Both the position numbers and the translations under genes were made by a program. The notes under the pieces are model-generated. The model did not search any database, had not been told where the DNA came from, and saw only the letters and a list, made by a program, of their open reading frames with translations. A stretch of DNA of 10,000 bases from Magnetospirillum sp. (GTDB taxonomy: Bacteria; Pseudomonadota; Alphaproteobacteria; Rhodospirillales; Magnetospirillaceae): NCBI GenBank assembly GCA_020217035.1, contig JAIWOG010000121.1, forward strand, positions 1 through 10,000, written 5' to 3'. Below are positions 2,509 through 8,317 of the stretch, one piece after another (the first letter of the stretch is position 1; each line of letters begins with the position of its first letter).

Positions 2509-2584
<76 letters not shown>

Positions 2585-2772: not shown

Positions 2773-4134
2773 ATGACCGATTCCGTCAAATATTTCCTGC
2801 CCGAAGAGAAGATGCCCAAGGCCTGGTACAACCTGGCCGCCGACCTTCCGGTGCCGCTGCCGCCGCCCCTGCATCCCGGCACCGGCCAGCCGCTGGGGCC
2901 AGACGATCTGGCCCCCATCTTCCCCCAGGCGGTGATCGCCCAGGAAATGACCACCGAACGCTGGGTCGACATCCCCGAGCCGGTGCGCGACGTCTATCGC
3001 CTGTGGCGCCCGGCGCCGTTGATCCGCGCCCGGCGGCTGGAGCGTGCGCTGGGCACCCCGGCCAAGATCTTCTTCAAGTACGAAGGCGTGTCGCCGGCCG
3101 GCAGCCACAAGCCCAACACCGCCGTGCCGCAAGCCTTCTACAACCAGCAGGAAGGCGTGAAGCGGTTGTCCACCGAGACCGGCGCCGGCCAGTGGGGCAG
3201 CTCGTTGGCGTTCGCCGGCTCGCTGTTCGGCATCGAGGTCGAGGTCTTCATGGTGAAGATTTCGTACAACCAAAAGCCCTATCGCCGCGCCCTGATGGAA
3301 ACCTATGGGGCGCGCTGCATCGCCAGTCCGTCGTCCCTGACCAATTGCGGTCGCGCCATCTTGGAAAAGACCCCGGATTCCAACGGTTCTCTGGGCATCG
3401 CCATCTCGGAGGCGGTGGAAGTGGCCGCCACCCGCGACGACACCAAATACGCGCTCGGCAGCGTGCTGAACCATGTCTGCCTGCACCAGACCATCATCGG
3501 CGAAGAAGCCATGCTGCAGATGGAAATGGCCGATGCGGCCCCCGACGTGGTGGTGGCCTGCACCGGCGGCGGCTCGAACTTCGCCGGCCTGGCCTTCCCC
3601 TATATCCGCGAGAACCTGAAGAACGGCGGCAAGACCCGCATCGTCGCCGTCGAGCCGGCATCGTGCCCGACGCTGACCAAGGGCCAGTACGCCTATGATT
3701 TCGGCGACACCGGCCACCTGACGCCGCTGGTCAAGATGCACACCTTGGGCTCGACCTTCATGCCGCCGGGCAGCCATGCCGGCGGCCTGCGCTATCACGG
3801 CATGGCGCCGATGGTCAGCCACGTCAAGGAACTGGGGCTGTGCGAGGCCCGCGCCTTCGCCCAGACCGAATGCTTCGCCGCCGCCATCACCTTCGCCCGT
3901 GCCGAAGGCATAGTGCCGGCCCCCGAATCGTCGCACGCCATCAAGGGCGCCATCGAGGAGGCGCTGCGCTGCAAGGCGGAAGGCAAGGCGGAAACCATCC
4001 TGTTCAACCTGTCGGGCCACGGCCATTTCGACATGCAGGCCTATACCGACTATTTCGCCGGCAACTTGAAGGACCTGCCCTATGACGAAGCGGCGCTGGA
4101 AACGGCGCTGTCCGAACTGCCGCAGGTGGGTTAA
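2773..4134 (+). CDS. trpB2: TrpB2-type tryptophan synthase beta-like PLP enzyme
   Basis: A 453-residue fold-type II PLP enzyme of the TrpB2 class, longer than the classical TrpB1 partner of TrpA (about 400 residues). The PLP-binding lysine is K113 in GSHKPNTA, catalytic E135 is in ETGAGQWG, and the phosphate loop is GGGSN at 265-269. The N-terminal extension with WYNLAADLP and the LWRPAPLIRA segment is typical of TrpB2. The class makes tryptophan from indole and serine, or may use serine/indole in a salvage role. No trpA is adjacent, so it probably works alone or with a distant TrpA. The start at 2773 has a weak AGGGA at 2756-2760. The stop at 4132-4134 overlaps the stop of the convergent sigma-like gene. 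An annotation as a generic TrpB-like lyase would also be defensible. Confidence 0.93.
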   Translation: MTDSVKYFLPEEKMPKAWYNLAADLPVPLPPPLHPGTGQPLGPDDLAPIFPQAVIAQEMTTERWVDIPEPVRDVYRLWRPAPLIRARRLERALGTPAKIFFKYEGVSPAGSHKPNTAVPQAFYNQQEGVKRLSTETGAGQWGSSLAFAGSLFGIEVEVFMVKISYNQKPYRRALMETYGARCIASPSSLTNCGRAILEKTPDSNGSLGIAISEAVEVAATRDDTKYALGSVLNHVCLHQTIIGEEAMLQMEMADAAPDVVVACTGGGSNFAGLAFPYIRENLKNGGKTRIVAVEPASCPTLTKGQYAYDFGDTGHLTPLVKMHTLGSTFMPPGSHAGGLRYHGMAPMVSHVKELGLCEARAFAQTECFAAAITFARAEGIVPAPESSHAIKGAIEEALRCKAEGKAETILFNLSGHGHFDMQAYTDYFAGNLKDLPYDEAALETALSELPQVG

Positions 4135-4511
4135 ACCCCGAAAAGTCGATCCAGCCAACCGGCCCGCTTTTGCGGCCGGTTGGCGCATTCGCCCACCACT
4201 TGGCGGATCAGGGCGGCGATGTCTTCGTCGTCAATGGCGCCGGGTCCAAGCCCGCCTCTGCCGGTACCGGCTTCCATCATATCCAGCAAACGCCGATCCA
4301 GCCGTCCCGATCGCGGCGCCCACAACGGAGCGCTTTCCCATACCTTCACCATGACCCGGGCGGCGCCCTGCAAGGCCCGCTCCCGGTCGTCATGGGCGGC
4401 CAGGGCGCAAAGCGCCAGCCACGGCAACTTGCGGACACACAAAACGGTGAAGGCGCGCATGCTGCCCGCAGCGACGAAGTCGAGGATTTCGTCGTCGGAC
4501 AAGGCCAGCAT
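4131..4511 (-). CDS. Short ECF sigma-like protein with region 2 only
   Basis: A 126-residue protein. Residues about 5-75 line up with sigma region 2 of the full ECF factor encoded at 6485-7054: SDDEILDFVAAGSMRAFTVL against DDDELLELTATGNRDAFQIL, then MVKVWESAPLW against FLKVWTQAPKW. After about residue 76 the match ends. The tail is Gly-rich, then IDDEDIAALIRQVV and a basic end, RPQKRAGWLDRLFGV. No region 4 is visible, so promoter -35 recognition should be absent. The start is the ATG at 4511 with a perfect AGGAGG five bases upstream; a GTG at 4517 is less well placed. It follows the acidic protein gene by 17 bases and is probably the third gene of the EF-hand operon. It could be a decaying paralogue, but the excellent ribosome site and the intact frame suggest it is made. 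Function is unknown; a decoy or anti-sigma-binding role is speculation. Confidence 0.75.
   Translation of the reverse strand: MLALSDDEILDFVAAGSMRAFTVLCVRKLPWLALCALAAHDDRERALQGAARVMVKVWESAPLWAPRSGRLDRRLLDMMEAGTGRGGLGPGAIDDEDIAALIRQVVGECANRPQKRAGWLDRLFGV
4154..4184. terminator. Strong 11-bp hairpin after trpB2, within the 3' end of the convergent gene
   Basis: GCCAACCGGCC (4154-4164) and GGCCGGTTGGC (4174-4184) are perfect inverted arms with a 9-base loop, starting 20 bases past the trpB2 stop. No U-run follows on the + strand, so it may pause polymerase, protect the mRNA 3' end, or need Rho. It also encodes residues of the convergent small protein. Confidence 0.45.
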
Positions 4512-4528
4512 GCGCACCTCCTAACCGA

Positions 4529-5050
4529 TCACGCCTTGATGTCCACCAGACCGGACGACATCAACTGGGTCAGGTAATCCTTGGCCTTGCTGGTGTCGCT
4601 GCCCTGGTTGGCCTGCTGCAACTTTTCCAGCAATTCTTCCAGGGCGGTCTTCTCGGTCTCGTCCTCTTCCTCGGTCTCCGAGGTTTCTTGGCTGCCGCCG
4701 GAGGGCGGCGGACCACCGGCACCAGACGGCGGCGGACCGGGGGGCGGAGCGGACGGACGGTTGGCGGCCATCTGGCTTTCGAACTCGTCCAAGGCGGCGC
4801 GGACTTGGTCGGCTTCCTCCTGGGTCAGGGTGCCGGCCTCCACGTCCTGGGTCAGTTGTTGTTCCAAAGCCTCGCGCACGCTGGCCGGGTCGGCCGGAAT
4901 CGAACCCGCGCTCATGGTCGACTTGACCACGCTTTCCAGTTCAGAGCTGATGGAAGAGGATTTCTCGGCGCTCAGGCCCTTGCTTTGCAGCGAGGTCGCC
5001 AGGGTGTCCTGAAGCGATGGCGGGCGGCCGCCCACGGATGAAATGCTCAT
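4529..5050 (-). CDS. Acidic Pro-rich protein of unknown function in EF-hand operon
   Basis: A 173-residue protein I cannot assign to a family. The N-terminal half (about 10-93) is Ser/Gln-rich and probably helical, including REALEQQLTQDVEAGTLTQE. A Pro/Gly linker follows (about 96-120, PPPGPPPSGAGG and PPPSGG). Then comes an acidic stretch (SETEEEDETEKT) and a C-terminal helical segment ending in SSGLVDIKA. There is no signal peptide, membrane segment or canonical EF-hand loop. The acidic run could bind cations loosely, but that is inference. The start ATG at 5050 has AAGGGGAAA just upstream. It sits between the EF-hand gene (119-base gap) and the sigma-like gene (17-base gap). Its Gln/Ser-rich C-terminus is compositionally like that of the EF-hand protein. 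Confidence 0.85.
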   Translation of the reverse strand: MSISSVGGRPPSLQDTLATSLQSKGLSAEKSSSISSELESVVKSTMSAGSIPADPASVREALEQQLTQDVEAGTLTQEEADQVRAALDEFESQMAANRPSAPPPGPPPSGAGGPPPSGGSQETSETEEEDETEKTALEELLEKLQQANQGSDTSKAKDYLTQLMSSGLVDIKA

Positions 5051-5169
5051 GTGCTTTCCCCTTGTTCTCAAGACGACGGGTGGTTTCTCCACCATTCGCT
5101 TACACGGGGCTTGGCCGCCGACCCTGCGCGATGATTTTCACTTTTCCACCGCGCAGGGGAAGACGGCGA
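5051..5169 (-). promoter_or_regulatory. Gap with hairpin and CCGTGTAAG element before the acidic protein gene
   Basis: CCCTGCGCG (5122-5130) and CGCGCAGGG (5150-5158) form a perfect 9-bp stem with a 19-base loop, starting 11 bases after the EF-hand stop; it lacks a T-run, so it may be a processing or attenuating stem. GGTGG/CCACC (5079-5093) is a smaller stem in the leader. CCGTGTAAG (- strand, 5099-5107) ends 48 bases from the start codon. A near copy sits at almost the same distance before the EF-hand gene, hinting at a shared promoter or operator element. Confidence 0.4.
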
Positions 5170-6081
5170 TCACGCACTCAGCGACAAGGCGGAAACGGCG
5201 CTGCCGCCATAGAGCGCCGAGCCGCTTTGCTGCGACTTGGAATAGGCATCGATGGCCGACATCAATTGCTGCATGGCCGACGAGGTGGCGCCGTCCGACG
5301 GCGTTCTGGACTCGCCGGATTGCAGGGCTGAGATCAGTTTTTCGACCAAGTCCTGCTCGTCCTGGCTGAGCGAGACGTCGGCTGCTTGGGGCGGCGGCGG
5401 CCCCTGCATGCCCTGGGCAAGCTGTTCGGAAGTGATGAACTCGGCGTCTTCGCCGGCCAGGCTTTCGAACAAGGCGGTGGCTTCTTCCTCGCTGACGTCG
5501 TCGGGGCGGCCGGCCAGGAATTCCTGTCGGCTGACCACGCCGTCCTTGTTGGTGTCCAAGGCGTCGTAGACTTCGTCGGCTTCACCGCCGCCGCCGCCGC
5601 CGCCGCCCGCAGGTGGCTGCATGGCGGCGACGAAGGTTTCGGAATCGACGCTTTCGGTGCCCTCGCCGAACAATGTGCTGTAAAGGGCGGTGGCGTCTTC
5701 CTCGCTGACGTCGTCGGGACGGCCGGCGACGAATTCGTCCTGCGACACGGCGCCGTCGCCATCGGTGTCGAGTTTGGCGAACAGGTCGGAGGCTTCGGGC
5801 CGCGAGCCACCCAGGCTTTGCACTTGGATCATGGTGGCCTGCATGCTGGCCGCCATCTGCTGGAAGGCGGTAGCCAGGTCGCTTTGGCTCAGCGCACCGG
5901 TGCCTTCGCTGTCCAGCTTGTCGTAAAGGGAACCGGCCTTCTCGGCGCTGAGGTCGTCGGGAGCGCCGGCGACGAATTCGTCCTTCGACACCGTGCCGTC
6001 GCCGTTGGTGTCGATGCGCGTGAACATCTTTTCGAATTGGGCCGAGCTGAAAGAGCCGAGCCCGCTGATCCCACTTGCCAT
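5170..6081 (-). CDS. Multi-EF-hand calcium-binding protein
   Basis: A 303-residue protein built of three repeats. Each begins with a canonical EF-hand loop (24-35 DTNGDGTVSKDE; 105-116 DTDGDGAVSQDE; 176-187 DTNKDGVVSRQE), with Ca2+ ligands at positions 1, 3, 5 and 12. A conserved F-[VL]-A-G-x-P-D-D-[LV]-S-x-E linker follows, then a degenerate second loop (57-68, about 138-149, about 209-220). An eight-Gly run (159-166) separates repeats two and three, and a GPPPPQ linker precedes a Gln/Ser-rich tail. There is no signal peptide or membrane segment, so it is cytoplasmic or leaves by a non-Sec route. The start ATG at 6081 has GGAGA (6090-6094) upstream; upstream in-frame Met codons lie in AT-rich regulatory DNA. 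It is divergent from an ECF sigma operon and leads an operon with a sigma-like protein, suggesting Ca2+ buffering or signalling tied to that circuit. Confidence 0.93.
   Translation of the reverse strand: MASGISGLGSFSSAQFEKMFTRIDTNGDGTVSKDEFVAGAPDDLSAEKAGSLYDKLDSEGTGALSQSDLATAFQQMAASMQATMIQVQSLGGSRPEASDLFAKLDTDGDGAVSQDEFVAGRPDDVSEEDATALYSTLFGEGTESVDSETFVAAMQPPAGGGGGGGGEADEVYDALDTNKDGVVSRQEFLAGRPDDVSEEEATALFESLAGEDAEFITSEQLAQGMQGPPPPQAADVSLSQDEQDLVEKLISALQSGESRTPSDGATSSAMQQLMSAIDAYSKSQQSGSALYGGSAVSALSLSA
5587..5607 (-). repeat. (GGC)7 trinucleotide run encoding poly-Gly
   Basis: Seven perfect GGC codons (- strand) plus one GGT encode eight glycines between EF-hand repeats two and three. Slippage would change linker length in whole residues without a frameshift. 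Confidence 0.85.
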
Positions 6082-6199
6082 GGTCTTTCTCCGCAGAAGC
6101 GGCAAGCCGACAATTCGGCTCACGACACCTAACACGGAGAAGAAGCAAAAAACCTGCACCAAGAAAACAAAATTCCGGAAAAATCCTATTATTACTGTC

Positions 6200-6251
6200 T
6201 TGTATAAATACAAATAACGGCTCGCCAAATAATTTATGGCGTCCGTTATTT
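6200..6251. promoter_or_regulatory. Nested dyads, candidate operator
   Basis: TTGTAT-AA-ATACAA (6200-6213) is a perfect 6+6 inverted repeat. It overlaps a larger dyad: AAATAACGG (6212-6220) with CCGTTATTT (6243-6251), enclosing GCCA (6224-6227) and TGGC (6237-6240). The near-symmetry over 40 bp in the middle of a divergent region suggests binding of a dimeric regulator to control both operons. Confidence 0.5.
6201..6228 (-). promoter_or_regulatory. Possible sigma70-type promoter of the EF-hand operon
   Basis: On the - strand, TTGGCG (6223-6228) and TATACA (6201-6206) are 16 bases apart, four of six matches each, giving a leader of about 110 bases. Both hexamers sit within inverted repeats, so a bound regulator would block them. 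A sigma-specific promoter nearer the gene (around 6108-6137) is an alternative. Confidence 0.4.
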
Positions 6252-6359
6252 TATCTCTTGCACATTTACTGTTTGTTAGTGCACGATCCGAATTGTCGCC
6301 ACATTCCATGCAAGGGCGGGGCCAACACATCCCGACAGCCCCCCCTGGCGTTGAAGGGC

Positions 6360-6447
6360 GACGCAGAAGGCGTCACTCCCCAGAACAGGGAAATCGCTGC
6401 CGGGTGACCCGGCAAATGTTGCCGAGAGGGCGGCAAAGCCTGCCGCC
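6360..6447 (+). promoter_or_regulatory. Run of hairpins in the leader of the ECF sigma operon
   Basis: Four stems are readable. GACGC/GCGTC (6360-6374) has a 5-base loop. TGCCGGGT/ACCCGGCA (6398-6414) is an 8-bp palindrome around one base. TTGCCG/CGGCAA spans 6419-6436, and GGCGGCA/TGCCGCC spans 6429-6447. The last two share bases 6429-6436 and cannot form together, the logic of an attenuator or switch; the last is followed by TTTGGGGG. I do not recognise a named riboswitch. If it lies in the transcript it is 5' UTR of the sigma gene. Confidence 0.45.
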
Positions 6448-6484
6448 TTTGGGGGTGGAGTGTTTCGATGATCCGGATGCGGCC

Positions 6485-7054
6485 ATGAACGACAGCCGCG
6501 ACGACGACGAATTGCTGGAACTGACGGCCACGGGGAACCGTGACGCCTTTCAAATCCTGATGGAAAGGCACGTCAAATCCATGTTGATGCTGGCCCAGAG
6601 GGTCAGCGGCAATTCCGACGACGCCGAGGAACTGGTCCAGGACGCCTTCTTGAAGGTGTGGACGCAGGCGCCCAAGTGGCGCCGCGACGGGGCCGCGCAA
6701 TTTTCCACCTGGCTTTACCGGGTGGTGCTGAACGGCTGCCTGGACCGGCGCCGCCGACCGGTCTGGACCGGCTTGGACGAGGCCGCCGAACTGGCCGACA
6801 CCGCCCCCGGCGCCGCCCAGCATCTGGCCCGAAGCCAAAGCCGCGCCCTGATCCAGGCGGCCATGGGAACCATCCCCGAACGCCAACGCGCCGCCCTTTT
6901 CCTGCACTATTTTTCTGAAATCAGCGCCCCCCAGGCGGCTCAGGTGCTGGATATCAGCGTGCCGGCCATGGAAGCCCTCTTGATACGCGGCAAGCGAGCG
7001 CTTAAGAAGGAATTGATACGCCGAGGCGTCACCGACCTTGGAGACATGCTTTGA
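6485..7054 (+). CDS. ECF-type RNA polymerase sigma factor
   Basis: A 189-residue extracytoplasmic-function sigma factor. Region 2 covers about residues 8-85 (DDDELLELTATGNRDAFQIL, then EELVQDAFLKVWTQAPKW and FSTWLYRVVLNGCLDRRRR). Region 4 covers about 120-178 (IPERQRAALFLHYF, then SAPQAAQVLDISVPAMEALL and IRGKRALKKEL, the -35-binding HTH). The start is taken as the ATG at 6485, which puts region 2 at the usual distance; a GTG at 6455 is an in-frame alternative and neither has a strong ribosome site. The TGA at 7052-7054 overlaps the next start. It is followed by a membrane anti-sigma candidate and a metal-sensor-like protein, as in CnrH-CnrY-CnrX-type systems. Its targets probably include one or both divergent operons, which is inferred. 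Confidence 0.94.
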   Translation: MNDSRDDDELLELTATGNRDAFQILMERHVKSMLMLAQRVSGNSDDAEELVQDAFLKVWTQAPKWRRDGAAQFSTWLYRVVLNGCLDRRRRPVWTGLDEAAELADTAPGAAQHLARSQSRALIQAAMGTIPERQRAALFLHYFSEISAPQAAQVLDISVPAMEALLIRGKRALKKELIRRGVTDLGDML

Positions 7055-7377
7055 CCGCGGACGGGCTTGATACGCTGATCAAGAACGCCTTCCCCGCCAC
7101 CGACATCCCGCCCGACCAAGTGCAACGGGTGATGGCGGGGGTGTTCGCGCGTCTGGATCAAACGCAGCCGCAAGTCCGCCTCAACCGCTGGCAACGCCTG
7201 GGACAATTGCTGTCCGAGCTGACCCCGGCCCCTTGGGTTCTGGTTCGCCAGGCCGCCCTGCCCGTGGCCCTGGCCCTGGCCCTGGGCGTTTACCTGGGAC
7301 AGGTTCCCCGCCAGACCGCGCCGCAAGTCCAATTGCTGGCCAGCCTGACCAGCCCCTTGATGAGCGCGGGCTATTGA
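7051..7377 (+). CDS. Single-pass membrane protein, probable anti-sigma factor
   Basis: A 108-residue protein with a cytoplasmic N-terminal part (about 1-62), one membrane helix (about 67-86, QAALPVALALALGVYLGQV) and a short outer tail ending in SPLMSAGY. That is the CnrY-like plan: the N-terminal segment holds the sigma factor and the helix links to a periplasmic sensor. Sequence similarity to named anti-sigmas is weak; the call rests on topology and position. The start is TTG at 7051, overlapping the sigma stop (TTGA), with GGAGA (7040-7044) well placed. Its TGA overlaps the ATG of the sensor gene, so all three should be made in coupled amounts. Confidence 0.75.
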   Translation: MTADGLDTLIKNAFPATDIPPDQVQRVMAGVFARLDQTQPQVRLNRWQRLGQLLSELTPAPWVLVRQAALPVALALALGVYLGQVPRQTAPQVQLLASLTSPLMSAGY

Positions 7378-7814
7378 TGGCCGAACACCCCATCTTGCGA
7401 TGGCTGTTGCCGGTTTCGCTGACGGTGAACGCGTTCCTGGGCGGGTTGATGGTCAGCCAATGGCAGAAACCCGCTGTCCCGCCGCCGCCGCGACCGGAAC
7501 GGATGATCGAGGAAATGGCGGAAACCCTGCCCGCGGCCGACGCCGCCATCCTGCGGCAAAGCTTCGGAGCGCGTACCGCCAAGCTGGAACACCGTCCCCG
7601 CAACCCCGAGGAAATGTTCCTGAAGATCGGCGCCGCCCTGAAGACCGAGCCCTTCGACCCCCTGGCCCTGGCCGCCATCTTCCGCGACGGTCGCAAGAGC
7701 CGCGACGCCATGGACGATACCATCGAAGGCGCCCTGGTGGACGCCGCCACCAAGATGTCCGCCGAGGGCCGCCATAAACTGGCCGACTGGCACCCCCGCC
7801 CACCACGTGACTGA
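7377..7814 (+). CDS. Membrane-anchored periplasmic metal-sensor-like protein (Metal_resist/CnrX type)
   Basis: A 145-residue protein with an N-terminal membrane anchor (about 8-27, RWLLPVSLTVNAFLGGLMVS), a Pro-rich spacer (33-40) and a helical periplasmic domain. The segments LPAADAAILRQSF, AALKTEPFDPLALAAIF and the KMSAEGRHKLADW tail fit the heavy-metal-resistance/periplasmic sensor family related to CnrX and ZraP. His and Met residues (H72, M80, H133, H139) are few, so metal choice cannot be read. The start is the ATG at 7377, overlapping the previous stop (TGATG); an in-frame ATG at 7233 would bury most of the anti-sigma gene and is rejected. It likely senses a periplasmic ion or stress and controls the anti-sigma. 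Confidence 0.82.
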   Translation: MAEHPILRWLLPVSLTVNAFLGGLMVSQWQKPAVPPPPRPERMIEEMAETLPAADAAILRQSFGARTAKLEHRPRNPEEMFLKIGAALKTEPFDPLALAAIFRDGRKSRDAMDDTIEGALVDAATKMSAEGRHKLADWHPRPPRD

Positions 7815-7864: not shown

Positions 7865-8317
7865 TCAGCCGACGCTGTCGTCCCGTGCCGGGGTGTCGCC
7901 CAGCTTGGCGCTCCACGTTTCGGCCGCCCGTTCCAGCTTGGCCAGCACCTCGGATTCGTGCTTCAGCAGCTTGCGCGACGATTTCAGCGCCTTGTAGTAC
8001 AGGCCCGCCGCCAGCTCGTCGCGGATTTCCTGGCCGATATCCACCGCCGACGGACAGGCGTCCAGGTATTCCACCAGGTAATGGGTGAACAGCGTCAAGT
8101 AATGGTCGCGCTTTTCCGGGAAGATGTAGGCGCATTGCAGGCAGAAATAGACCCGTGCCGCCGGCGTCGCGATGTCGTCGTTGGTCAGGATTTCCTTTTG
8201 CCGTAAGATGTTGGATTCATTGTGAATCCTAAGCTTGGTATTGGCGCCGGCATTTTCGATGACAGCACCGTTGATGATGACTTTTTCACCAGGCTTGAGG
8301 TCGATCAGCAAAGGCAA
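7865..8317 (-). CDS. flbT: FlbT, post-transcriptional flagellin regulator
   Basis: A 150-residue protein with the family signature at the N-terminus: LIDLKPGEKVIINGAVIENA, then LRIHNESNILRQKEIL, and PAARVYFCLQCAYIFPE in the middle. In Caulobacter FlbT binds flagellin mRNA leaders and represses flagellin until hook assembly, with FlaF as counterpart. The length matches the family. The start is a TTG at 8317 that aligns with family N-termini, with GGAGAG six bases upstream. No flaF or flagellin gene is in the window, so it stands apart here, with its own promoter and terminator. The C-terminal 40 residues are helical and less conserved. Confidence 0.95.
   Translation of the reverse strand: MPLLIDLKPGEKVIINGAVIENAGANTKLRIHNESNILRQKEILTNDDIATPAARVYFCLQCAYIFPEKRDHYLTLFTHYLVEYLDACPSAVDIGQEIRDELAAGLYYKALKSSRKLLKHESEVLAKLERAAETWSAKLGDTPARDDSVG

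Follow-up and report, generated by a model that had tools for sequence, protein, structure and literature searches.

Gene content of the locus

The window examined here covers 10,000 nucleotides (nt) of G000, a draft genome of Magnetospirillum type (3.54 Mb, 334 contigs). In it, an operon for an extracytoplasmic function (ECF) sigma factor faces an operon for an EF-hand protein. Six genes lie within positions 4131-7814, three on the plus strand and three divergent from them on the minus strand:

6485-7054, plus strand: ECF sigma factor of the PRK05602 family, 189 amino acids (aa), ATG at 6485 (Pfam and NCBIfam, matches in the Protein Data Bank [PDB], tree)
7051-7377, plus strand: anti-sigma-like protein, 108 aa, one predicted transmembrane segment near residue 62 (position, hydropathy)
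7377-7814, plus strand: membrane-anchored periplasmic sensor of the Metal_resist family with a CpxP/Spy/CnrX-like helical fold (Pfam Metal_resist, 6e-22)
5170-6081, minus strand: calsymin/XopAW-like EF-hand protein, 303 aa, likely start at 6081 (NCBIfam NF041410, 2.6e-47)
4529-5050, minus strand: acidic protein, 173 aa (ratio of nonsynonymous to synonymous substitution rates, dN/dS, of 0.16-0.29 in four comparisons)
4131-4511, minus strand: protein resembling sigma region 2 only (sigma2-only protein), 126 aa (hhalign, Foldseek, dN/dS)

All six genes are present as a preliminary description of the window had it, i.e., an ECF sigma factor coupled to a single-pass membrane protein and a periplasmic protein resembling a metal sensor, divergent from an EF-hand operon.

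The genes of the plus-strand trio are consecutive and overlap at their ends. The sigma factor matches Pfam Sigma70_r2 (8e-17) and lies barely above the NCBIfam cut-off for PRK05602 (210.3 bits, cut-off 208); in a PDB search CnrH (4cxf, E 6.6e-13) was the fifth of 21 matches. The anti-sigma-like gene begins at a TTG that overlaps the sigma stop codon and is conserved across relatives. Neither Pfam nor the PDB yielded a relative of its product, and a match to CnrY was set aside after a PDB profile search gave chance-level matches only. The AlphaFold model of the sensor (predicted local distance difference test score 92) shows an extended helix at the N terminus, followed by a periplasmic domain that is also helical. 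A structure search with this model placed CpxP, CnrX, NccX, Spy and ZraP among the top rows, with scores that are middling for a helical bundle. A profile of the sensor gave a weak match to CnrX as the best in the list (3zg1, E 0.004), and a single-sequence search of the PDB gave none.

An ECF sigma factor, an anti-sigma protein with one transmembrane segment and a CnrX-fold periplasmic sensor in a single operon form the layout of CnrYXH. A transition-metal (Co/Ni) system with the EF-hand operon as a chance neighbor would account for these three kinds of gene, for the sensor fold with its weak CnrX match and for the resistance-nodulation-division (RND) efflux genes that adjoin some relatives. 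However, among 41 aligned sensors neither His nor Cys is conserved, so that the His-based Co/Ni ligands of CnrYXH-type systems are not maintained; N18 and R132 are invariant, and conserved acidic residues are few. There are no RND efflux genes among the window genes, such neighbors being limited to a separate subgroup of relatives, and the promoter motif described below leads to the EF-hand operon. CnrX-type Co/Ni sensing appears unlikely because the sensor lacks conserved His and Cys residues, and the explanation as a whole is very improbable.

The EF-hand protein scores 161.6 bits against NF041410 (XopAW; cut-off 120), whereas the sister-genus homologues L123 and L131 fall below that cut-off (112.5 and 97.6); some homologues carry the name calsymin. 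The protein had been described as six-lobed. It does have six EF-like loops in three pairs, of which only three are canonical by PROSITE (residues 24, 105 and 176) and three are degenerate. Its net charge is -39. By a crude pattern, no signal peptide was found in the window protein or in any of the divergent EF-hand open reading frames (ORFs; 0/21), and EF-hand ORFs co-oriented with the sigma module in other genomes have Sec-type starts in 26 of 28 cases, some of these starts being doubtful. In five relatives (G001, G002, G013, G050 and G054) the divergent gene keeps a Ser-rich scaffold and has no canonical EF loops. Lanmodulin-like lanthanide binding was considered and rejected, the NCBIfam matches being partial and far under the cut-off.

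At L193-L198, in several genera, Ser-rich low-complexity proteins with Pro-rich spacers replace the EF-hand protein; the one at L195 has no Pfam match.

Association of EF-hand genes with the sigma factor module

Two sets of genomes were compared. The family set comprises 55 genomes, with a sigma match at E <=1e-25 in 38 and an EF-hand match at 1e-3 in 30; a separate class draw comprises 144 alphaproteobacteria, with a sigma match in 28. The ECF matches G054:C249, G008:C269 and G017:C32 were excluded from flank-based counts. An EF-hand gene was counted strictly, as an ORF with at least two PROSITE EF loops within 1.6 kb upstream. The preliminary description had named a lack of co-occurrence in related genomes among the findings that would speak against its link between the two operons. 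Co-occurrence was found: an EF-hand gene stands at 25 of 69 sensor-bearing modules and at 1 of 21 sensor-less ones (Fisher P 0.005, the rows being phylogenetically non-independent). The corresponding figures are 14/43 versus 0/18 in the family set and 11/26 (EF-hand gene upstream on the same strand) versus 1/3 in the class set. These counts include L282, a 737-aa ORF whose EF match is possibly spurious. L286 lies near a contig end, and no sensor gene was found there. Away from sigma genes, 7 EF ORFs were present in 673 kb, at loci that had themselves been chosen for an EF-hand match.

In a midpoint-rooted tree of 106 sigma sequences, the window sigma factor falls in a group of 29 members with support of 100/100. 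A scaffold gene adjoins the sigma gene in 26 of them, weakly recognized in a few. By labels assigned by hand, a divergent EF-hand gene is present in 18 rows and an EF-poor, Ser-rich or acidic scaffold gene in 8, and 3 have neither. L124 and L133 have fewer than two PROSITE loops, L126 is cut at a contig end (its EF-hand match was seen separately), L191 has only an acidic gene, on the sigma strand, and L192 has a truncated EF gene and an acidic gene. Three genomes (L188-L190) retain the sigma module with no EF-hand-type neighbor. In other alphaproteobacteria, Sec-type EF-hand genes lie immediately upstream of the same sigma/anti-sigma/sensor module in a co-oriented arrangement. Other subgroups of the sigma family adjoin RND efflux genes or flagellin clusters; neighbors in the survey of the RND subgroup were mostly judged by eye from raw ORFs.

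Several related arrangements were also observed. Modules at L204-L209 are divergent from RND efflux genes, and in L206-L209 the sigma gene is preceded by a distinct element, GCGTAAG. On Azospirillum plasmids (L224, L225), an RpoE8-type operon is divergent from tetratricopeptide repeat (TPR) and glycosyltransferase genes and not from an EF-hand gene. At G000:C257:6441-6977 an ECF-like reading frame is interrupted by a single in-frame TGA.

An ECF-type promoter motif

The EF-hand gene and the acidic gene are both preceded by a motif of the form CGCA(G/T)G-N16/17-CGTG or a near variant of it; in genomes outside this genus the sigma gene is preceded by it as well. The window has two copies:

6131-6158, minus strand: TGCAGG-N16-CGTGTT, ECF-type motif of the EF-hand gene, at 77 nt from its start codon (weak here, stronger in relatives)
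5101-5128, minus strand: ECF-type motif of the acidic gene, CGCAGG-N16-CGTGTA (strong copy)

The distance from the motif to the start of the EF-hand gene is 77 nt in 7 of 7 loci of the window subclade and 80-82 nt in 7 further loci. The exact form CGCAGG-N16-CGTGT occurs three times in the genome, once at the acidic gene, and a reversed-pattern control occurs not at all. The motif was present before at least 20 of 40 genes, a lower bound since the start-codon heuristic missed several true starts; its density is 0.08 per kb and strand, a figure that includes true sites. It also precedes other sigma genes, namely the genome's own ECF2 (CGCAGG-17-CGTGTA) and ECF3 (CGCCAG-16-CGTGTA) and Azospirillum brasilense rpoE8 (CGCAGG-16-CGTATC), and CGCAGGG...CGT stands 46-76 nt from the start of 8 of the 23 co-oriented EF-hand genes, on the upstream side. 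In A. brasilense, the RpoE6-dependent fliC2 promoter, mapped by 5' rapid amplification of cDNA ends, is reported as CGCCAG-16-CGTGAG (PMC12826043). Because the motif stands at ECF2, ECF3, rpoE8 and co-oriented EF-hand genes and resembles this mapped promoter, it is probably the sequence read by this sigma family. The EF-hand operon would most likely be a target of the adjoining ECF sigma factor, since the motif lies at a fixed distance before the EF-hand gene and is found at the acidic gene as well. The link between module and operon that was first proposed from gene arrangement and shared intergenic elements is thus upheld by co-occurrence and by the motif at both genes.

That the two operons are unrelated and merely share an intergenic region by descent is highly unlikely. 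Synteny can persist in this way within one family, but in sister genera the promoter motifs are common to both operons at fixed spacing, the motif also precedes an acidic gene that one genome carries on a different contig (L216), and EF-hand genes are associated with the module a second time, co-oriented, in other families.

Autoregulation of the sigma gene in this genus was considered and rejected, the ECF-side motif of the sister genera being absent. One unlinked EF-hand gene (L134, in G020) has a single ECF-type motif, and the window's sigma type was not seen in that genome.

A sigma54 promoter and paired palindromes

The intergenic region contains a second set of elements, which the preliminary description had missed and which appears to connect the building of the flagellum with the EF-hand operon of this family:

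6309-6324, minus strand: sigma54 -24/-12 element TGGCCCCGCCCTTGCA, predicted transcription start near 6298 toward the EF-hand gene (24-locus comparison, geometry)
6410-6424, strand not assigned: palindrome CGGCA-N5-TGCCG, putative FlbD/ftr-like activator site 1 (motif comparison)
6431-6445, strand not assigned: palindrome CGGCA-N5-TGCCG, putative FlbD/ftr-like activator site 2 (motif comparison)

The sigma54 element has the GG/GC spacing of a -24/-12 promoter. Counts were made in 24 related divergent regions, many of them from close relatives. An element matching at 9/12 or better occurs in 23 of these, compared with 1.95 in shuffled sequence and 36 of 535 random windows; at a score of at least 10 the figures are 21/24 and 7/535. 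The palindrome with at most one mismatch was found in 22 of the 24 regions (29 of 535 control windows), and 15 regions have two or more (0/535). Relative to the predicted sigma54 start, most palindrome centers fall between about -110 and -140, with most pairs at -139/-118 or -131/-109. This is a usual position for enhancers.

Exact palindromes number 17 in G000, compared with 30 for the reversed-pattern control, and the sole adjacent pair is the one at this locus. The flanks of three others place the first upstream of fliF, the second in the fliX-flgI interval and the third inside a coding region; at the genome's own flgI, a sigma54-like element follows the palindrome on its downstream side. 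Two relatives have the palindrome before fliF, and it also stands before flgI in the first of them and before a FliD_C gene in the second. With at most one mismatch, it precedes 14 of 20 sensor-less, flagellin-type ECF genes. In two complete relatives, 5/9 and 4/10 of the exact palindromes stand at the module pair, fliF, flgI, FliD_C or a flagellin-type ECF gene. Both elements are absent from the promoters of the paralogous ECF2 genes (0/8), and at L188-L190 the sigma54 element is found in 0/3 and the palindrome in 1/3. Within the family the two elements go with the EF-hand gene, because they are scarce at ECF2, at co-oriented modules and at L188-L190.

RpoN and FliX are encoded in G000. The activator of the EF-hand sigma54 promoter is likely a FlbD-like flagellar regulator, since the same palindrome precedes fliF and fliX/flgI. 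Many sigma54 activators exist, and some exact palindromes stand at non-flagellar genes, so the elements could serve another enhancer-binding protein (for nitrogen, envelope or metal responses) and the EF-hand operon could be non-flagellar. This is unlikely given sites at fliX/flgI and near flagellin-type ECF genes, the sigma54-like element at flgI, and sites at fliF in three genomes. FlbD of Caulobacter is reported to bind ftr sites, to repress fliF and to activate sigma54 genes (PMC3930126), making fliF a known target.

A second sigma/anti-sigma/sensor module of G000 (L007; G000:C256:4000-14500) is followed by a sensor-less ECF gene, flagellin and FliD-like and FliS-like genes. It is RpoE6-like and of the same promoter class, and near-palindromes precede its sensor-less ECF gene.

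Other genes of the operon and its flanks

The acidic protein has no Pfam match above the cut-off; several of its sister-genus relatives bear an EF loop. The last gene of the operon had been called sigma-like. This description fits the start of sigma2, to which the protein aligns (hhalign probability 95% to an ECF alignment over 63 columns; Foldseek top matches to region 2 of sigmaE at E 0.6-1.1 and probability 0.94-0.98), and purifying selection acts on the gene (five comparisons with the window gave dN/dS of 0.21-0.37), but regions 2.3-2.4 and sigma4 are not recognizable. Homologues numbered 15 among 81 candidates, and the two with a named source are both from Magnetospirillum. The protein is perhaps confined to this genus, and a role as a decoy for the anti-sigma protein is possible.

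Beside the module lies the following gene:

7865-8317, minus strand: FlbT, flagellar regulator gene (Pfam FlbT, 4.4e-39)

Positions 65-2584 contain a DUF5131 protein, a phage integrase and a tRNA-Lys gene (2509-2584, minus strand) and resemble the end of an integrated element.

Interpretation

The favored reading, which is reasonably probable judged from sequence, is that the locus comprises an envelope-responsive ECF switch and an output operon with two kinds of promoter, one ECF and one flagellar sigma54. By analogy with the family, the CnrX/CpxP-like sensor and the anti-sigma protein would hold the sigma factor at the membrane and release it upon an envelope signal. Free sigma factor would then transcribe the EF-hand and acidic genes from the CGCA(G/T)G-N16/17-CGTG sites, whose sequence and spacing were observed. 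Independently, sigma54 RNA polymerase with a FlbD-like activator bound to the palindromes, as suggested by the sites at fliF and fliX/flgI, would transcribe the EF-hand gene. The proteins of the EF-hand operon would thus first be made at middle-to-late flagellar assembly. Being strongly acidic, without a signal peptide and similar to secreted calsymin, they probably act outside the cytoplasm, where Ca2+ suffices to fill EF loops; export is predicted. The EF-hand protein would then be under the control of the sigma factor and need not serve it as a Ca2+ sensor.

Several observations weigh against this reading. The ECF-type copy before the window's EF-hand gene scores 6.9, below the 95% level of shuffled sequence (12.8), and no copy precedes the sigma gene in the window or in this genus, whereas sister genera have one. 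The elements that the preliminary description took to be shared in the divergent region are borne out for the sigma54 elements and palindromes, which are far above controls in the 24 regions, and for the ECF-type motif on both sides in sister genera, but not for the ECF-type motif in the window itself. The strict motif was not seen before the EF-hand gene at 15 of 23 co-oriented loci, and the unlinked EF-hand homologues L135-L137 have no ECF-type motif, sigma54 element or palindrome. Derivation and counting of the ECF-type and palindrome motifs used the same loci, many of which are closely related. Total palindrome numbers are below the reversed-pattern control, and in the two complete relatives 4/9 and 6/10 of the exact palindromes lie elsewhere, at genes that do not look flagellar. 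Co-oriented modules have the sigma54 element in 3/22 and the palindrome in 2/22 cases, and therefore the flagellar input is not general. At L195-L197 the EF-hand profile match reached only E ~2-4e-4 and was not flagged in a second run.

In a Ca2+ circuit, on the model proposed for SigV and the periplasmic CaBP of Caulobacter, either the EF-hand protein or the sensor would measure Ca2+ and act on the sigma factor accordingly. This would explain why sensor-bearing modules repeatedly have EF-hand neighbors, in two different architectures. The co-oriented EF-hand ORFs with signal-peptide-like starts (26/28) have the cabp-sigV layout, and cabp/sigV are reported to be induced by calcium limitation and acid (PMC13171946). 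In the divergent architecture, however, the EF-hand protein has no signal peptide (0/21) and would miss the periplasmic sensor unless exported otherwise, several relatives lack canonical EF loops, and conservation in the sensor extends to few acidic residues and to no His or Cys. Such a circuit is improbable here. The preliminary description held that the EF-hand operon points to Ca2+ in place of Co/Ni; this does not stand, as the divergent gene of five relatives is without canonical EF loops, L188-L190 have no such neighbor and other modules adjoin RND efflux genes. Ca2+ as the signal is unproven, since EF loops are absent from the gene in several relatives and the sensor is without conserved His or Cys.

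A more speculative extension, of fairly low probability, is that the EF-hand and Ser-rich proteins are flagellum-timed export substrates that leave through the flagellar gate. Their genes would be switched on by sigma54 and FlbD at basal-body completion, the RpoE6-related sigma factor with its anti-sigma protein and CpxP-like sensor would tune supply to the state of the envelope, and the sigma2-only protein would be the anti-sigma decoy.

Few bacterial EF-hand proteins have a known regulation or function, and one group of them gains a predicted promoter code here, namely an ECF motif with the sigma, anti-sigma and sensor genes adjoining and a flagellar sigma54 input. A connection between Ca2+, the flagellum and the envelope becomes testable.

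Comparison with known systems

The CnrYXH system of Cupriavidus metallidurans shares with the locus the three kinds of gene, an anti-sigma protein with one transmembrane segment, the sensor fold and sigma homology (4cxf); the window locus differs in having no conserved His/Cys ligands, no RND genes and a putative EF-hand output. We know of no ECF module for calsymin (CasA) of Rhizobium etli. Like the EF-hand protein, calsymin is calmodulin-like, with three domains that have EF-hand motifs; it is reported to be secreted by R. etli, casA being expressed only during colonization and infection of bean (PMC10574481, PMC9860679).

The FlbD/FliX hierarchy of Caulobacter resembles the flagellar input proposed here in its sigma54 promoters and in its FlbD (ftr) sites, which include a site at fliF, but no EF-hand operon is among the targets named in the available portions of the sources (PMC3930126, PMC3096577). 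Open-licence full texts contained none that joined EF-hand with FlbD, or EF-hand with a sigma factor and a periplasmic heavy metal sensor; for ECF genes with EF-hand neighbors a strict query gave none and another search gave the Caulobacter paper discussed last.

A. brasilense RpoE6-Asf6 and RpoE8 belong to the same sigma family as the window sigma factor. The mapped RpoE6 promoter resembles the window motif, and RpoE6 controls flagellar filament genes. The rpoE8 operon consists of genes for a sigma factor, a hypothetical protein and a periplasmic heavy metal sensor, and its function is not known according to the authors (PMC12826043). It has no EF-hand neighbor, TPR and glycosyltransferase genes being found there. 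The locus described here suggests candidates for its role.

The nearest published relative of the locus is the CaBP-SigV loop of Caulobacter vibrioides (2026), in which cabp and sigV are reported to affect each other. The two systems share an EF-hand gene directly adjoining an ECF sigma gene. They differ in that CaBP, of 133 aa, is exported by Sec, in that the sigV promoter lies within the CaBP gene and in that the -35 elements are of the GGAA type, and the accessible part of the paper mentions no anti-sigma protein, no sensor and no sigma54/FlbD input for Caulobacter (PMC13171946). Sec export is absent from the divergent EF-hand ORFs here (0/21). The authors postulate a membrane link whose component is unidentified (PMC13171946). 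The C. vibrioides genome does contain a Metal_resist match, at an unspecified place. By analogy, the anti-sigma-like protein and the sensor of the present locus are candidates for this missing link.

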